From Coriobacterium glomerans PW2 (lineage in GTDB: Bacteria > Actinomycetota > Coriobacteriia > Coriobacteriales > Coriobacteriaceae), in NCBI RefSeq assembly GCF_000195315.1, contig NC_015389.1, positions 1,488,001-1,552,000 on the forward strand: a stretch of 64,000 nucleotides of DNA. The letters run 5' to 3'. Below, in pieces: positions 14,016-19,938 of this stretch (position 1 is the stretch's first letter; every line of letters starts with the position of its first letter). The notes under the pieces are model-generated. The model searched no databases. It saw nothing but the letters and a program-made list of their open reading frames with translations, and had not been told where the DNA came from. Both the position numbers and the translations under genes were made by a program.

Positions 14016-14641
14016 GTTTATCCTTTCTTCTAAGTTTCTCATGTTGTAGTTTCTTATCTTGGATTAACTATAGGATATAACTTAGTTCTAATTAGTAATA
14101 AGTCAAGCGAGATATTTTGTTTTTTGCCACTAAATCCAGCATGTCCTTATCTTTTGATAAAATTGTATAGGTATTTAACTAGTATAAGGAGGGTTACTAT
14201 TTCTATCGCTTTATGTTTTCCTTTGCGTTGAATCGATTCGATTGCCTCATTTATGAAACTTACACCCAATCGTATGAACAACTATCTTACTTGTGCACTG
14301 TTTCGAGATAAAGCCGACAAATCAAAGCAGCCGACGCGCATAAGAAATAACTTGCTGCCGACATGTCATTGAAGTACCGGAACGAATATTTAAAAATGAA
14401 GGACAAGGCCGCATGATTGAATTGCGGAACGGGCAGGAGGGGGCATTATACAATCGAATTGAATAGCGCGCGTTCCCCTATCAGTTATTCCGTATTTGAA
14501 TTTTACGTGAAGAGTTTGCAAGTATGTTTGCTAAGCGCGCATCCACCCGATGAGATGCTTGGATGAAATGAACATGAAAGTTACCCATCGGCACAAGACT
14601 GCCACCAGAGCAACCATAAAGTGAAAGGAATTCGCCAAGAT
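14016..14641. other. AT-rich intergenic island
   Basis: This 626-nt stretch is clearly richer in A/T than its surroundings, especially 14040-14300. It holds the promoter-like sequence and motif copy B (14079-14106) facing left, an orphan ribosome-site-like AAGGAGGG at 14187-14193 not followed by a proper start at normal spacing, a TATACAAT at 14447-14454 that could be a -10 for the 109-aa HTH gene, and two 32-codon frames (ATG 14213, ATG 14274) without support. No tRNA, transposase or long frame is seen. Confidence 0.5.
14081..14098 (-). promoter_or_regulatory. Two-part motif, copy B (CTTAGTT-3-ATTAGTAA)
   Basis: CTTAGTT (14081-14087) and ATTAGTAA (14091-14098) are identical to the halves of copy A but only 3 bp apart. 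They fall within the promoter-like region upstream of the possible 69-aa gene on the minus strand. Confidence 0.4.
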
Positions 14642-14971
14642 ATGAAAAGAGTCCTCAATAAACGTCTTCGCGCGCCTCAGGACAAGCAACTGTGGAAACG
14701 TGCTTCGCCCACTTTTCACTCATGTTCAGATGGGGACCGAGCTGAACCCAGTTTGACATTCGCTGCCACATTGAAAGTATTCATGGACGCACGGCATCTC
14801 AGACAAGTTGATCTTCAGTCACCCCTTATCAGCAAACCCTATCTATCTCGCTTGCTGAGCGGTAAATTCAAAGAACCTACATGGGAGCGAGCCTGCGCGA
14901 TGATCGACGCCGTGGGCATCTCGCTTGACGAGTTCAGAGCGCTTCAACTGCAAGGAATACCCTTCAAGTAG
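14642..14971 (+). CDS. 109-aa HTH protein, tandem paralogue 1
   Basis: A 109-aa protein: residues 1-10 MKRVLNKRLR, a variable linker (11-36), then the small HTH domain (37-109) with SLTFAATL, LISKPYLSRLLSG, KEPTWERACAMIDA and GISLDEFRALQLQG. It aligns without a gap to the product of 15125-15454: 64 of 109 residues identical, 54 of 73 in the HTH part and 9 of 10 at the N-terminus. Equal length and the conserved basic N-terminal decamer support this start; GAAAGG lies about 12 nt upstream. A GTG at 14621 would add seven residues. Probably DNA-binding; the N-terminal decamer could be an extra DNA or partner contact. Confidence 0.75.
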   Translation: MKRVLNKRLRAPQDKQLWKRASPTFHSCSDGDRAEPSLTFAATLKVFMDARHLRQVDLQSPLISKPYLSRLLSGKFKEPTWERACAMIDAVGISLDEFRALQLQGIPFK

Positions 14972-15124
14972 TTTCGCGCCAGCATGCCCGAAACGTTGTG
15001 AAGACCCTCGTTTTATACTTTCATTTGATGGCGAATCATATGGTCTTGTGAGAACAGTTCCAGCACCGCAATGACTGATGCGCAAAATAGCTTGAAAGGG
15101 ATATTGAAAGGGATTGGAAAGCGC

Positions 15125-15454
15125 ATGAGAAGAGTACTCAACAAACGTCTTCGTCCAAATCGGAGGGGCTTGGTGCGCGCGCTTACCTCGCACGGTCTCG
15201 GCGCGCAACCCAACATCGTTCCAACCAAATTCAGCCTGACGTTCACCGAGACTCTGAGAGCTCTCATGGACGCGAAGGGTCTCAGGCAGGTCGACCTTCA
15301 ATCCGAATTGATAAGCAAGGCATATCTGTCAAAGCTGCTTCGCGGCAATATCAAAGAGCCGACATGGAGGCGAGCCTGCGCGATGATCGACGCGCTCGGG
15401 ATCTCGCTTGACGAGTTCAGAGCGCTCCAGCTGCAGGGAGGGCTTCCTCGGTAA
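15125..15454 (+). CDS. 109-aa HTH protein, tandem paralogue 2
   Basis: Second member of the tandem pair, 153 nt downstream of the first. It has MRRVLNKRLR at the N-terminus, an unrelated linker, and the HTH domain SLTFTETL, LISKAYLSKLLRG, KEPTWRRACAMIDA, GISLDEFRALQLQG. The linker between residues 11 and 36 has diverged completely while both ends are conserved, which suggests selection on the decamer and the HTH. An in-frame ATG at 15071 has no ribosome site, whereas GGAAAG precedes 15125. TATACT at 15014-15019 is a possible -10. It converges on the SIS gene. Confidence 0.75.
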   Translation: MRRVLNKRLRPNRRGLVRALTSHGLGAQPNIVPTKFSLTFTETLRALMDAKGLRQVDLQSELISKAYLSKLLRGNIKEPTWRRACAMIDALGISLDEFRALQLQGGLPR

Positions 15455-15614: not shown

Positions 15615-16730
15615 CTAGCGCGACGACGTGACGCTGCCGCTCTCGGCGACAGGCGCCTTGCTGCCGATGCGCTCATGGAACCGCGGATCCTTCGGGATGG
15701 CCGGATCGATCCCCAGGGACTGAGCCGCGCGGCAGGCGATGACCTGCAGCGGCAGGATGTACTCCCAGCAGGAGAAGAGCGGATCATCGACGAGGTGGAC
15801 GATCAGGTCGCGCTCAGAGGGGGCCTCGACCCCGTTGGGGTCGGCGATGAGGTGGGTGTGCGGCGTCCACTCGCTCAGGATCTCGATGAGCCTCTGCGCC
15901 CGCGCCTTGTAGGCGCCTTCGGATCCCAAGATGAACAGGTGGCTCTCTGCGGAGATCGAATTGTAGATGCCATGGAAGAACTCCTCGATATCGTAACCGC
16001 TCACACCCTGGCGCACGGTCTCCAAGATCTTCAGCGCTCCCTCCAGCACGTCTCCGTAGATGGCGTCGTAGCCCACGACGATGATGCGGCGCGCGCTCAC
16101 AAGATCGGCCTCGATTCTGCGATACCAGGAATCGGCCTCGCTGATCACGGGCGGCATGTTGTCGATGACGCGCCTCATGCGCGCTATCGAGACATCGAGT
16201 TCGGCGGGCGCGACTTGGCCTGTGGCGCGGGCCAACTCGGCGAGCATGAGCATGAGCGTTGCGATCGAGCCGCAGTAGCCCTTGGTCTTGGCCCCGCACG
16301 CCTCCTCTCCGACCTCCAGCATGATTCTCGTCTCTGCGTGCTCGAAGATGAGGGCAGAGGGGTTCGCGCTCAGAGCCGCCGTGCGCATGCCGCGCGCGGC
16401 CGCCGCGTCCAGGCCCGCCACGGTCGATAGGCTCTGGCCGCCTTGGGAGACGCCGATGACCAGCGCTCTGGGATCTGCGAGAGGGGCTTCCCGGGCGAAG
16501 TGAGTCGGATACATCGGGCTGACCGGGCAGCCGATCACCTCCTGGATGAAGGTCTGGGCTGAGATACCGGCGTGGAAGCTCGTGCCCGATCCGATGATGT
16601 AGATCCGCTCGATGGGCGCGTCGCGCATAGCCTCGACGAAGGGGGCGCAGATCGAGGCGCGCTGCTCGATGATGCGACTGAGCACGGAAGGGGTTTCACG
16701 GATGTAGCCGAACATAGCAGATGACATCAT
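15615..16730 (-). CDS. SIS-domain sugar isomerase/deglycase-like protein
   Basis: A 371-aa cytosolic protein with two SIS (phosphosugar-binding) domains: IYIIGSGTSFHAG near residue 42 with GVSQGGQSLST, and IIVVGYDAIYGDVLEGALK in the second half. It resembles the isomerase half of GlmS and the FrlB/GfrF deglycases, without the glutaminase domain. Next to a mannose-family PTS, the best guess is a fructoselysine- or glucoselysine-6-phosphate deglycase, or an amino-sugar-phosphate isomerase. GGAGGAG precedes the start. Its ATG overlaps the original stop of the IID frame as ATGA, so translation was probably coupled to IID. Confidence 0.82.
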   Translation of the reverse strand: MMSSAMFGYIRETPSVLSRIIEQRASICAPFVEAMRDAPIERIYIIGSGTSFHAGISAQTFIQEVIGCPVSPMYPTHFAREAPLADPRALVIGVSQGGQSLSTVAGLDAAAARGMRTAALSANPSALIFEHAETRIMLEVGEEACGAKTKGYCGSIATLMLMLAELARATGQVAPAELDVSIARMRRVIDNMPPVISEADSWYRRIEADLVSARRIIVVGYDAIYGDVLEGALKILETVRQGVSGYDIEEFFHGIYNSISAESHLFILGSEGAYKARAQRLIEILSEWTPHTHLIADPNGVEAPSERDLIVHLVDDPLFSCWEYILPLQVIACRAAQSLGIDPAIPKDPRFHERIGSKAPVAESGSVTSSR

Positions 16731-16801
16731 AAGACTCCTCCGAACGCACCGATGATACCGAAGAGAATAAGCCCGAACATGACCGTGGTCGTCTTGAAAT
16801 C
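16727..16801 (-). other. Detached 3' end of the IID frame
   Basis: Directly after the IID stop (TGA, 16804-16802) the same frame continues DFKTTTVMFGLILFGIIGAF and four more residues (24 codons) to a TGA at 16729-16727. This is a hydrophobic helix of the kind that ends mannose-family IID proteins, and the second TGA forms an ATGA overlap with the SIS gene. It reads as the lost C-terminus of IID. Confidence 0.8.
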
Positions 16802-17569
16802 TCACTTCAGCAGAACGTAACAGGCAAACGTGAGCGCCAGCGGCAGGATCGAGGGCAGGATCTGATCGAAGATATCCTGGACCTTGATGGTCGTCTGGCC
16901 GATCGCCACCACCAGCGGAGTGGAGAACGTCACCATCGAGGCGATCATCGCACCCACCACGCACAGGCCCATGACCTTGGCCGCACCCATGAGTTTCTCG
17001 ATCACTCCGGAGGACTCGGCGGACTCGATGAAGCCGACGCCGCTCCGGTAGCCGATATCCAGACCCCACCAGCACGAGAGCACATGCGGGATATTGAAGA
17101 TGAGCAGAAACAGAATCGGGCCGAGCGGGCTGCCCCCGGAGGCCAGACCGCAGCCGACGCCGGTGGCGATGACGCGGAACGTTCCCCAGAAGAACGAGTC
17201 GCCGATGCCGGCGAGCGGTCCCATCAGCGCAGCCTTGATGGCCGCGATGGATTCGATATCGAAGGGACGCCCCTGACGCTCCGCGCTCACGTTCTCCTCC
17301 TCCAGGGCGATCGCGACGCCGGTGATGAAGGTGACGACCTGCGGGGTGGTGTTAAAAAATGACAGATGCCGCTTGAGGGCGCGGGCGGCCTGATCGCGCT
17401 CGGGATAGAGCCGTCGCAGCACCGGTATCATGGCGTAGCAGAAGCCGATGTTCTGCATCCGCTCGTAGTTGAACGAGGCCTGCAGCGGGAAGGAGCGCCA
17501 GAACACCTTGCGCATGTCTCGTCTCGTGATCATGCCGCCGGGCTTGACGGCTTCGTCCATATCTCTCAT
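16802..17569 (-). CDS. PTS mannose-family subunit IID, apparently truncated
   Basis: A 255-aa IID subunit, which with IIC forms the membrane channel of mannose-family PTS. Family signs are FWRSFPLQASFNYERMQNIGF, LKRHLSFFNTTPQ and IKAALMGPLAGIGDSFFWGT. The frame ends at LLK with TGA, about 25 residues short of the usual length of 270-285; the missing last helix is still encoded in frame downstream. A single change such as CGA or GGA to TGA would explain it. The ATG at 17569 overlaps the IIC stop (GTGATG; a GTG at 17572 is possible). Either a recent nonsense mutation, a read-through stop or a sequence error. Confidence 0.85.
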   Translation of the reverse strand: MRDMDEAVKPGGMITRRDMRKVFWRSFPLQASFNYERMQNIGFCYAMIPVLRRLYPERDQAARALKRHLSFFNTTPQVVTFITGVAIALEEENVSAERQGRPFDIESIAAIKAALMGPLAGIGDSFFWGTFRVIATGVGCGLASGGSPLGPILFLLIFNIPHVLSCWWGLDIGYRSGVGFIESAESSGVIEKLMGAAKVMGLCVVGAMIASMVTFSTPLVVAIGQTTIKVQDIFDQILPSILPLALTFACYVLLK

Positions 17570-18423
17570 CACAGCTCACCATCCAGATCTCGAGAGAGGG
17601 CCGGGGCTGCCGACGTCGGCGGCGCGCAAACGGCTGCGGCGCCGGGGTCGCTCGAACCGGTCACCCGGTCGGCGGGGGCCGCAGCGAGCCGCGCGTCGCG
17701 GGCGCTGGCCGCTTGGTAGATGACATAGGCGATCGTCGCGCCCACGATCGCCACACCGGTGGTGCTCATGCCCAGAAGCGCCGTGAGCACGAAACCGACG
17801 AAGAGGTATGCGGCATTGGTCTTATCGAAGATGAGCTGCATGAGGATCGCGATGCCCAGGGCGGGCAGCATGCCGCTGGCGGCCTTGAGCCCTCCCATGA
17901 TGAAGCTCGGCATCCAGTCGACGAAGCTGCCGATGACCTGCGCGCCGAGCAGAACACCGAGAAAGACGATCAGGAAGTTGCTGATCCAGAACAGAGTCGC
18001 GCCGCCCCAGAGGGCTCGCGAGATCCCAGCGAAATCGCCCTTGTCAGCCGCGGTATCCGCCATGCGAAGAAACGTCGAGTTCAGCGTTCGGACGAGGATG
18101 CCCACCGACTGCGCGAGCGTCGCTATGGGCAGAGACAGCGCGACAGCGGCCTGCGTGTCCAGCCCTGACAGAATCGAAAACGCCGTGGCCAAGATGCCCC
18201 CGCACACCACATCGGGCGGCACCGCCGCGCCGATGGATACGACGCCGGTCATGACGAGCTCGACTGCGGCCCCCGTGATGACGCCGGTGGACACGTCGCC
18301 CAAGATGAGACCGACCAGAGGCCCCAGAACGATGGGCCTCTCGAACATCCACTGACCGCACACGCGACCGTCCCAGATCGCGAATCCGGAGAGGATCCCC
18401 AGCAGAAGTGCCTGAACCACCAT
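17569..18423 (-). CDS. PTS mannose-family subunit IIC
   Basis: A 284-aa membrane protein with about eight hydrophobic segments; family features are the N-terminal LLLGILSGFAIWDG, FERPIVLGPLVGLILGD and the GAAVELVMTGVVSIGAAVPPD stretch. It carries the sugar with IID. AAGGAG precedes the ATG at 18423. The last ~45 residues are an Ala/Asp/Pro-rich soluble tail. The IID gene overlaps its stop. Confidence 0.92.
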   Translation of the reverse strand: MVVQALLLGILSGFAIWDGRVCGQWMFERPIVLGPLVGLILGDVSTGVITGAAVELVMTGVVSIGAAVPPDVVCGGILATAFSILSGLDTQAAVALSLPIATLAQSVGILVRTLNSTFLRMADTAADKGDFAGISRALWGGATLFWISNFLIVFLGVLLGAQVIGSFVDWMPSFIMGGLKAASGMLPALGIAILMQLIFDKTNAAYLFVGFVLTALLGMSTTGVAIVGATIAYVIYQAASARDARLAAAPADRVTGSSDPGAAAVCAPPTSAAPALSRDLDGEL

Positions 18424-18506: not shown

Positions 18507-18995
18507 CTAACCCTGCTCGTACGCGCAGACGATCGCCTCGAAGCCCATGGGCCGCTCGGTTGGAACGGACTGCAGAAAAACCCTTTTTCCCAGCTCATGA
18601 ATTTGTCTGAGTGCCGCCACATCCTGCTCGTCGAGAAAGACCGAACCGGAGATGCGACGGCGACCCGGTGCCTGGCGGACCCCTCCCAGACATATCTCGC
18701 CGATCCCCGCACAGCGCTTTGCGAGGATGAGCGCGTCGGCGGGGCTCGCGCACACCGCGAGAATGATGCGCCTCTCGTGCTTGGGATTGTTGAGGACCAG
18801 CGCGGCGCCCTCGAGTGATTTGATGGAGAGCGTCACCTGCGGCGGCTTCGCCATCTTGAAGGCGGTCCGCATGAGGGCATCGCTCAGGGCGGCGTCGCTC
18901 GCCACGACAAGCGTGTCGGCACCGAGATGCGACGTCCAGCTGACAGCGACCTGACCGTGGATGAGTCGGTCGTCAATGCGCAAAAGCTTGATCAT
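18507..18995 (-). CDS. PTS mannose-family subunit IIB
   Basis: A 162-aa cytosolic phosphocarrier. The phosphorylated histidine is in RIDDRLIHGQV (His14). AGGGGGG is placed about 7 nt before the start. It lies 12 nt after the IIA stop and 83 nt before IIC, in the usual IIA-IIB-IIC-IID order with separate polypeptides. Confidence 0.93.
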   Translation of the reverse strand: MIKLLRIDDRLIHGQVAVSWTSHLGADTLVVASDAALSDALMRTAFKMAKPPQVTLSIKSLEGAALVLNNPKHERRIILAVCASPADALILAKRCAGIGEICLGGVRQAPGRRRISGSVFLDEQDVAALRQIHELGKRVFLQSVPTERPMGFEAIVCAYEQG

Positions 18996-19007: not shown

Positions 19008-19565
19008 CTACAGCTCGGCGGTGTCCGGATCGGTTTGACGACGATTGAGATCCTGATCATCGGGCATGAGATCGCGCAGGAGGCCGATGCCCTCTTTCGC
19101 GGCGGCGACTGCGCGCCGAAGCATCGCCTCGTTTTTCTCGCGAACGACGGTCGTCATGCGACTCGAAGCGGTCTTCGTATCCCTCTCGCTCACGGGATCG
19201 CTGGAAAACTCGCTTCCGGTGAGAGACGCGCGGGTGCGCGCAATCAGCGGCAGCAGCGCGATCTCGAGGACGAGACCAAGGTTGAGACCCACGACGAAGT
19301 ACACGTTGCCGGCGGCGCGAGCGCGCACGCGCAGAGCGCTTTGCGTAGTGCTGCCGCCTATGATGTCTGTCAAAACAACAATCGGCTCGTCCGGGCCGAA
19401 CTCTGCGATCGCGGCTTCGGTGCGTTCGACGACGGCGAGAACGGTCTCGTGCGCCTGGACGCACACGGACGCGATCGGCACCGCCGCGCCCAGCACCAGC
19501 TCGATGGATGAGATGATCCCGTCTGCGAAATCGCCATGTGTGACCAGAACAAGCTTGTTAGCCAT
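19008..19565 (-). CDS. PTS mannose-family subunit IIA
   Basis: A 185-aa EIIA-Man domain, which takes phosphate from HPr on His10 (LVTHGDFADGI). The TDIIGGSTTQSAL segment matches the family loop. The length is greater than the usual ~140 residues; the C-terminal ~50 residues are charged and polar, and may be a linker remnant of a IIAB fusion. AGGAG lies 6 nt before the ATG. It is the first gene of the operon, facing away from the 68-aa HTH gene. Confidence 0.9.
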   Translation of the reverse strand: MANKLVLVTHGDFADGIISSIELVLGAAVPIASVCVQAHETVLAVVERTEAAIAEFGPDEPIVVLTDIIGGSTTQSALRVRARAAGNVYFVVGLNLGLVLEIALLPLIARTRASLTGSEFSSDPVSERDTKTASSRMTTVVREKNEAMLRRAVAAAKEGIGLLRDLMPDDQDLNRRQTDPDTAEL

Positions 19566-19647: not shown

Positions 19648-19731
19648 GAGCAAATCATGCATGCGGTGCCATCATTGGTATCATTTTGTTTCAGCGTCTG
19701 GTTCGAACCGTTCCTGAAGAGGGGTCAGCAT

Positions 19732-19938
19732 ATGTCATTCTCAACAGCGCTCGCCGCCGCCTTGCGCCACAAGGGGCTGCGTGAGGCAGATATCGTGGGC
19801 GGTGATATCAGCTCATCTTACATATCGAGGCTTCTGTCAGGGCAACTGCGTGAACCTACCTGGCCCAAAGCGTGCGAGATCGTCGACAGGCTCGGTATGT
19901 CGCTTGAGGAGTTTCGCTCTCTCAGCGAGAGCGATTGA
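19732..19938 (+). CDS. 68-aa single-domain HTH protein (small HTH family)
   Basis: A 68-aa protein of one HTH domain: MSFSTALAAALRHKGLREAD, DISSSYISRLLSGQLREPTW and KACEIVDRLGMSLEEFRSL. It is clearly the same family as the genes at 13658, 14642 and 15125 (shared (K/R)EPTW, AC, SL(D/E)EF). AGGGG stands about 8 nt before the ATG; an upstream open extension begins without a site. Being divergent from the mannose-family PTS operon and sharing its promoter region, it is the natural candidate regulator of that operon. No effector domain is present. Confidence 0.8.
   Translation: MSFSTALAAALRHKGLREADIVGGDISSSYISRLLSGQLREPTWPKACEIVDRLGMSLEEFRSLSESD

Follow-up and report, generated by a model that had tools for sequence, protein, structure and literature searches.

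Solved man-PTS structures show five transmembrane helices per subunit, of which TH3-TH5 make up the trimer's Vmotif scaffold (PMC11403280). One example of damage to such a subunit comes from Lactococcus, where the IID of a bacteriocin-resistant mutant is truncated after residue 206 (PMC10783117). On a broader scale, in-frame stops under purifying selection have been reported to be common in prokaryotes (PMC7918605). The EIID gene described here resembles the Lactococcus ptnC/ptnD Man-PTS loss mutants (PMC10783117) in the truncation of the IID membrane subunit, but differs from them in belonging to a natural genome, in being cut further downstream and in having no known bacteriocin selection. 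Likewise, it shares with ordinary nonsense-mutated genes and with the bacterial in-frame stops surveyed previously (PMC7918605) a lone stop within an otherwise conserved frame, but, unlike the latter, it shows no sign of cross-species conservation of the stop.

The PTS locus and its surroundings

The gene lies in a window of 64,000 nucleotides (contig NC_015389.1, positions 1,488,001 to 1,552,000 of the forward strand), which is the whole stretch of DNA analysed and to which all positions refer (Table 1). The organism, Coriobacterium glomerans PW2, is a gut bacterium that lives in symbiosis with the red soldier bug and represents the single species of its genus. EIID is accompanied by EIIA, EIIB and EIIC, and the gene order is equal in the relatives L001-L003 and L008. 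Additionally, three small related proteins are encoded on both sides of the PTS operon, at 14621-14971, 15071-15454 and 19657-19938 (plus). They share 62% and 39% identity and are possibly repeated regulators; the middle one (15071-15454) scores over the cut-off for helix-turn-helix families.

Table 1. Features of the PTS operon and the SIS gene, in window coordinates
Feature	Position	Strand	Details
PTS EIIA, intact	19008..19565	minus	PF03610, 46.6 bits
PTS EIIB, intact, motif RIDDRLIHGQV kept	18507..18995	minus	PF03830, 141.3 bits
PTS EIIC, intact, stop overlapping the EIID start	17569..18423	minus	PF03609, 235.7 bits
PTS EIID, open part	16805..17569	minus	255 codons from ATG 17569; PF03613, 325.8 bits, profile 2-239 of 265
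In-frame TGA in EIID	16802..16804	minus	among 79 relatives, 65 have K, 12 R and 2 S at this column
EIID tail past the TGA, 24 codons, without translation; encodes TH5 (DFKTTTVMFGLILFGIIGAFGGVL)	16730..16801	minus	family profile, AlphaFold2 helix
Original EIID stop, TGA	16727..16729	minus	overlaps the SIS start as ATGA
GGAGGAG, SD-like, for SIS, inside the EIID tail	16735..16741	minus	anti-SD duplex -9.5 kcal/mol
SIS-domain sugar-phosphate isomerase/deglycase-like gene, 371 aa, intact	15615..16730	minus	PF01380

A premature stop ahead of the last helix of EIID

Translation of 16727-17569 (minus strand) gives 255 residues up to CYVLLK, then a stop, then DFKTTTVMFGLILFGIIGAFGGVL and a second stop; starting instead from the overlapping GTG at 17572 would yield 256 codons. 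The same coordinates had been given in the initial annotation, which placed the halt after LLK at 16804-16802 and described 24 further open codons closing in a TGA that overlaps the SIS start. Retranslation agrees on both points, the final TGA of EIID (16729-16727) and the ATG of SIS (16730-16728) sharing bases as ATGA. The length of about 280 aa expected upon read-through is also normal for the family, as proposed, the relatives measuring 258-280 aa.

With a residue put in place of the stop, EIID matches its Pfam profile over positions 2-265 of 265 with 347.6 bits, of which about 22 bits come from the tail, and the 25-bit cut-off of PF03613 is passed both with the tail (347.6) and without it (325.8). 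Read in this manner, the protein is alike to the EIID of mannose/fructose/sorbose PTS (PF03613, TIGR00828) over the whole of profile 2-265, but is set apart from the PF03613 family by the stop ahead of the last helix and by a C at the position of R166. An AlphaFold2 model (mean pLDDT 80) shows helices at residues 241-255 and 260-277, the latter corresponding to the terminal helix that had been predicted for the tail, and places the stop, residue 256, in the loop joining the last two helices. In a Foldseek search with this model, every match below E 0.001 was an EIID chain of man-PTS structures, with an identity of 40-41% to E. coli ManZ (PDB 6k1h/7dyr). Since the stop precedes the last helix, TH5 alone would be missing from the product; the translated EIID thus has an incomplete helix set, which becomes complete only with read-through.

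A family end at LLK, which according to the initial annotation would mean that nothing is truncated, was found in none of the 79 relatives, and none of them (0/79) shares the TGA at this column. Within the genome, the stop occurs in only one of 12 EIID genes, the one studied here, and all 12 paralogues reach profile positions 260-265 of 265. The four nearest orthologues among 397 genomes of the order carry no such interruption and share 67-68% identity with this gene, and a search of same-family genomes at E 1e-90 or better returned no EIID match besides that of the genome itself. In a separate case, an EIID gene of Holdemania filiformis (L048, 3001-3783) carries one internal TGA in place of the TGG (Trp) found in its two close paralogous relatives, L045 and L051, the remaining frame being intact, which at the level of sequence indicates that lone stops in EIID genes are not confined to this genome.

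Conservation of the untranslated tail

Several lines of evidence indicate that the tail is a genuine portion of EIID, as judged from its sequence. Its BLOSUM profile score against the tails of the 79 relatives is 43.6, compared with a mean of -14.2 (sd 9.7, maximum 24.1) for 20,000 shuffles. Correspondingly, coding-like codon usage within the tail is confined to the EIID frame (+0.39 bits per codon; the two remaining frames score -0.53 and -0.29). Compared with the nine nearest relatives, the tail is 58-71% identical and the body 67-71%; this match between tail and body indicates that selection maintained the tail until recently. Two tail residues, D257 and G277, are absent from all 79 relatives, and the body has such never-seen residues at 11 of 236 positions, so that these two would not clearly amount to an excess of decay in the tail relative to the body. 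Among the 11 body residues is that at position 166 (17072-17074, minus), which is C here and R or K in 79/79 relatives.

Search for recoding and read-through

No SelB over the cut-off was found in the genome, and the best match in the search for tRNA-Sec, just over the cut-off, was tRNA-Ser(UGA). With neither tRNA-Sec nor SelB present, selenocysteine recoding of the UGA is ruled out. Similarly, a stop-reading (UCA-type) anticodon is carried by none of the 46 tRNAs, and tRNA-Trp has its normal CCA anticodon, which together rule out a suppressor tRNA or a code change at UGA. Nor was any defect seen in the frame of RF2, which is uninterrupted. Downstream of the TGA, RNA folding was no better than that of shuffles (z 0.61 to 1.12), and these scores give no sign of an RNA read-through element.

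A codon-usage scan of 183 kb detected 16 candidate open frames past stops (8 TAG, 7 TGA and 1 TAA). The candidates other than EIID were judged by eye from their translations, several of them appearing to be adjacent same-frame genes or low-scoring frames without family support, and no second convincing case of read-through was found in the 183 kb, an outcome that speaks against genome-wide read-through of TGA. Taken together, these tests remove the known mechanisms of programmed read-through but are compatible with leaky read-through at a low level.

Proposed translational coupling to the SIS gene

In the relatives, the IID stop and the SIS start overlap too, mostly as TAATG, which suggests that translational coupling between IID and SIS is the ancestral state. 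Here, ribosomes halting at the premature TGA would fall 72 bases short of the SIS start. The geometry thus supports the uncoupling of SIS translation proposed in the initial annotation. The impact is probably softened by the GGAGGAG motif right ahead of the SIS ATG, an SD stronger than those of most relatives, with an anti-SD duplex energy of -9.5 kcal/mol (nearest relatives, -2.9 to -6.1). SIS initiation would therefore probably still be possible despite the lost coupling. We do not claim this SD as compensation, since strong SDs are common at the other overlapping starts of this genome (-11.9 to -14.8).

SIS also evolves significantly faster than its relatives, with 55 vs 20 changes against L002 in the Tajima relative-rate test (outgroup L010, p=0.0001) and 83 vs 10 against L001, which is not the case for IIB, IIC and IID against L002. 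This fast evolution may reflect a change of substrate or relaxed constraint.

A recent nonsense mutation as the likely explanation

The conserved tail, a stop that is unique among the 12 paralogues and among the relatives at this column, and the lack of recoding machinery or signal make a nonsense mutation the best supported of the three options initially put forward; nothing supports programmed read-through, and a sequencing error is less likely. We consider it likely that a recent, lineage-specific nonsense mutation struck one of the 12 EIID genes and probably disabled this transporter, the recency and strain-specificity of the stop being inferred from one strain. Translation would end after residue 255, in the loop ahead of the last transmembrane helix, and the product would lack TH5, a piece of the Vmotif scaffold through which IIC and IID lock together in the trimer. 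This operon would then probably encode an inactive or impaired transporter, with the frames of IIA, IIB, IIC and SIS intact. SIS translation would in turn be uncoupled from IID termination, yet would keep a strong ribosome-binding site of its own.

The Tajima relative-rate test reveals no acceleration of IID (24 vs 23 changes against L002, outgroup L010, p=1.0), which speaks against an old decay of EIID. This lack of acceleration, together with a tail that has not drifted, would be consistent with a stop that is either recent or tolerated. Counting against a disabling mutation, the remaining operon is without signs of decay. The ten nearest relatives have K (AAA/AAG) at this site, from which TGA takes more than one change, the single-step origin from CGA or GGA that had been envisaged being one possibility.

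It is rather unlikely that the TGA is a sequencing or assembly error in an intact EIID gene. One base substitution would suffice to create it and the remaining gene is intact; moreover, the adjacent codon GAT (D) is also odd, this position being G in 36 of the 79 relatives, and could mark a locally bad stretch. On the other hand, the genome forms one contig of 2,115,681 bases, and its completeness is 99%. Indels are the commonest sequencing errors on older platforms, but the preserved reading frame excludes an indel as the cause and requires a substitution.

Leaky, unprogrammed read-through of UGA, for instance by tRNA-Trp, could also yield enough full-length IID to sustain some transport and let the stop be tolerated, a scenario to which we assign a small probability. 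UGA is leaky in some bacteria, the survey of prokaryotic in-frame stops (PMC7918605) regards low-level read-through as common, and both the conserved tail and the unaccelerated IID are consistent with it. However, a recent mutation predicts the conservation of the tail equally well, tRNA-Trp and RF2 look normal, no structure follows the stop, and the stop is present in no relative. Fixation of the UGA in the species, with regulated low read-through setting the amount of complete transporter and of coupled SIS translation, we regard as extremely unlikely. Very unlikely, too, is that the 255-residue IID works as a functional variant in spite of lacking TH5. In favour of this, the stop sits precisely between helices 241-255 and 260-277, 239 of the 265 Pfam positions are left, and SIS has a strong SD of its own; against this, 12 of 12 EIID paralogues extend to profile 260-265, no relative stops at LLK, TH5 is a component of the trimer scaffold (PMC11403280), and the frequency of strong SDs at overlapping starts in this genome means that the SIS SD does not specifically point to adaptation.

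Implications

A recent nonsense mutation of this sort is otherwise ordinary in kind. For genome annotation, it means that sugar uptake via this operon is not to be assumed from the genome of C. glomerans PW2. For the family, a stop that deletes exactly one scaffold helix provides a clean case on the need for TH5 in the assembly of man-family PTS.
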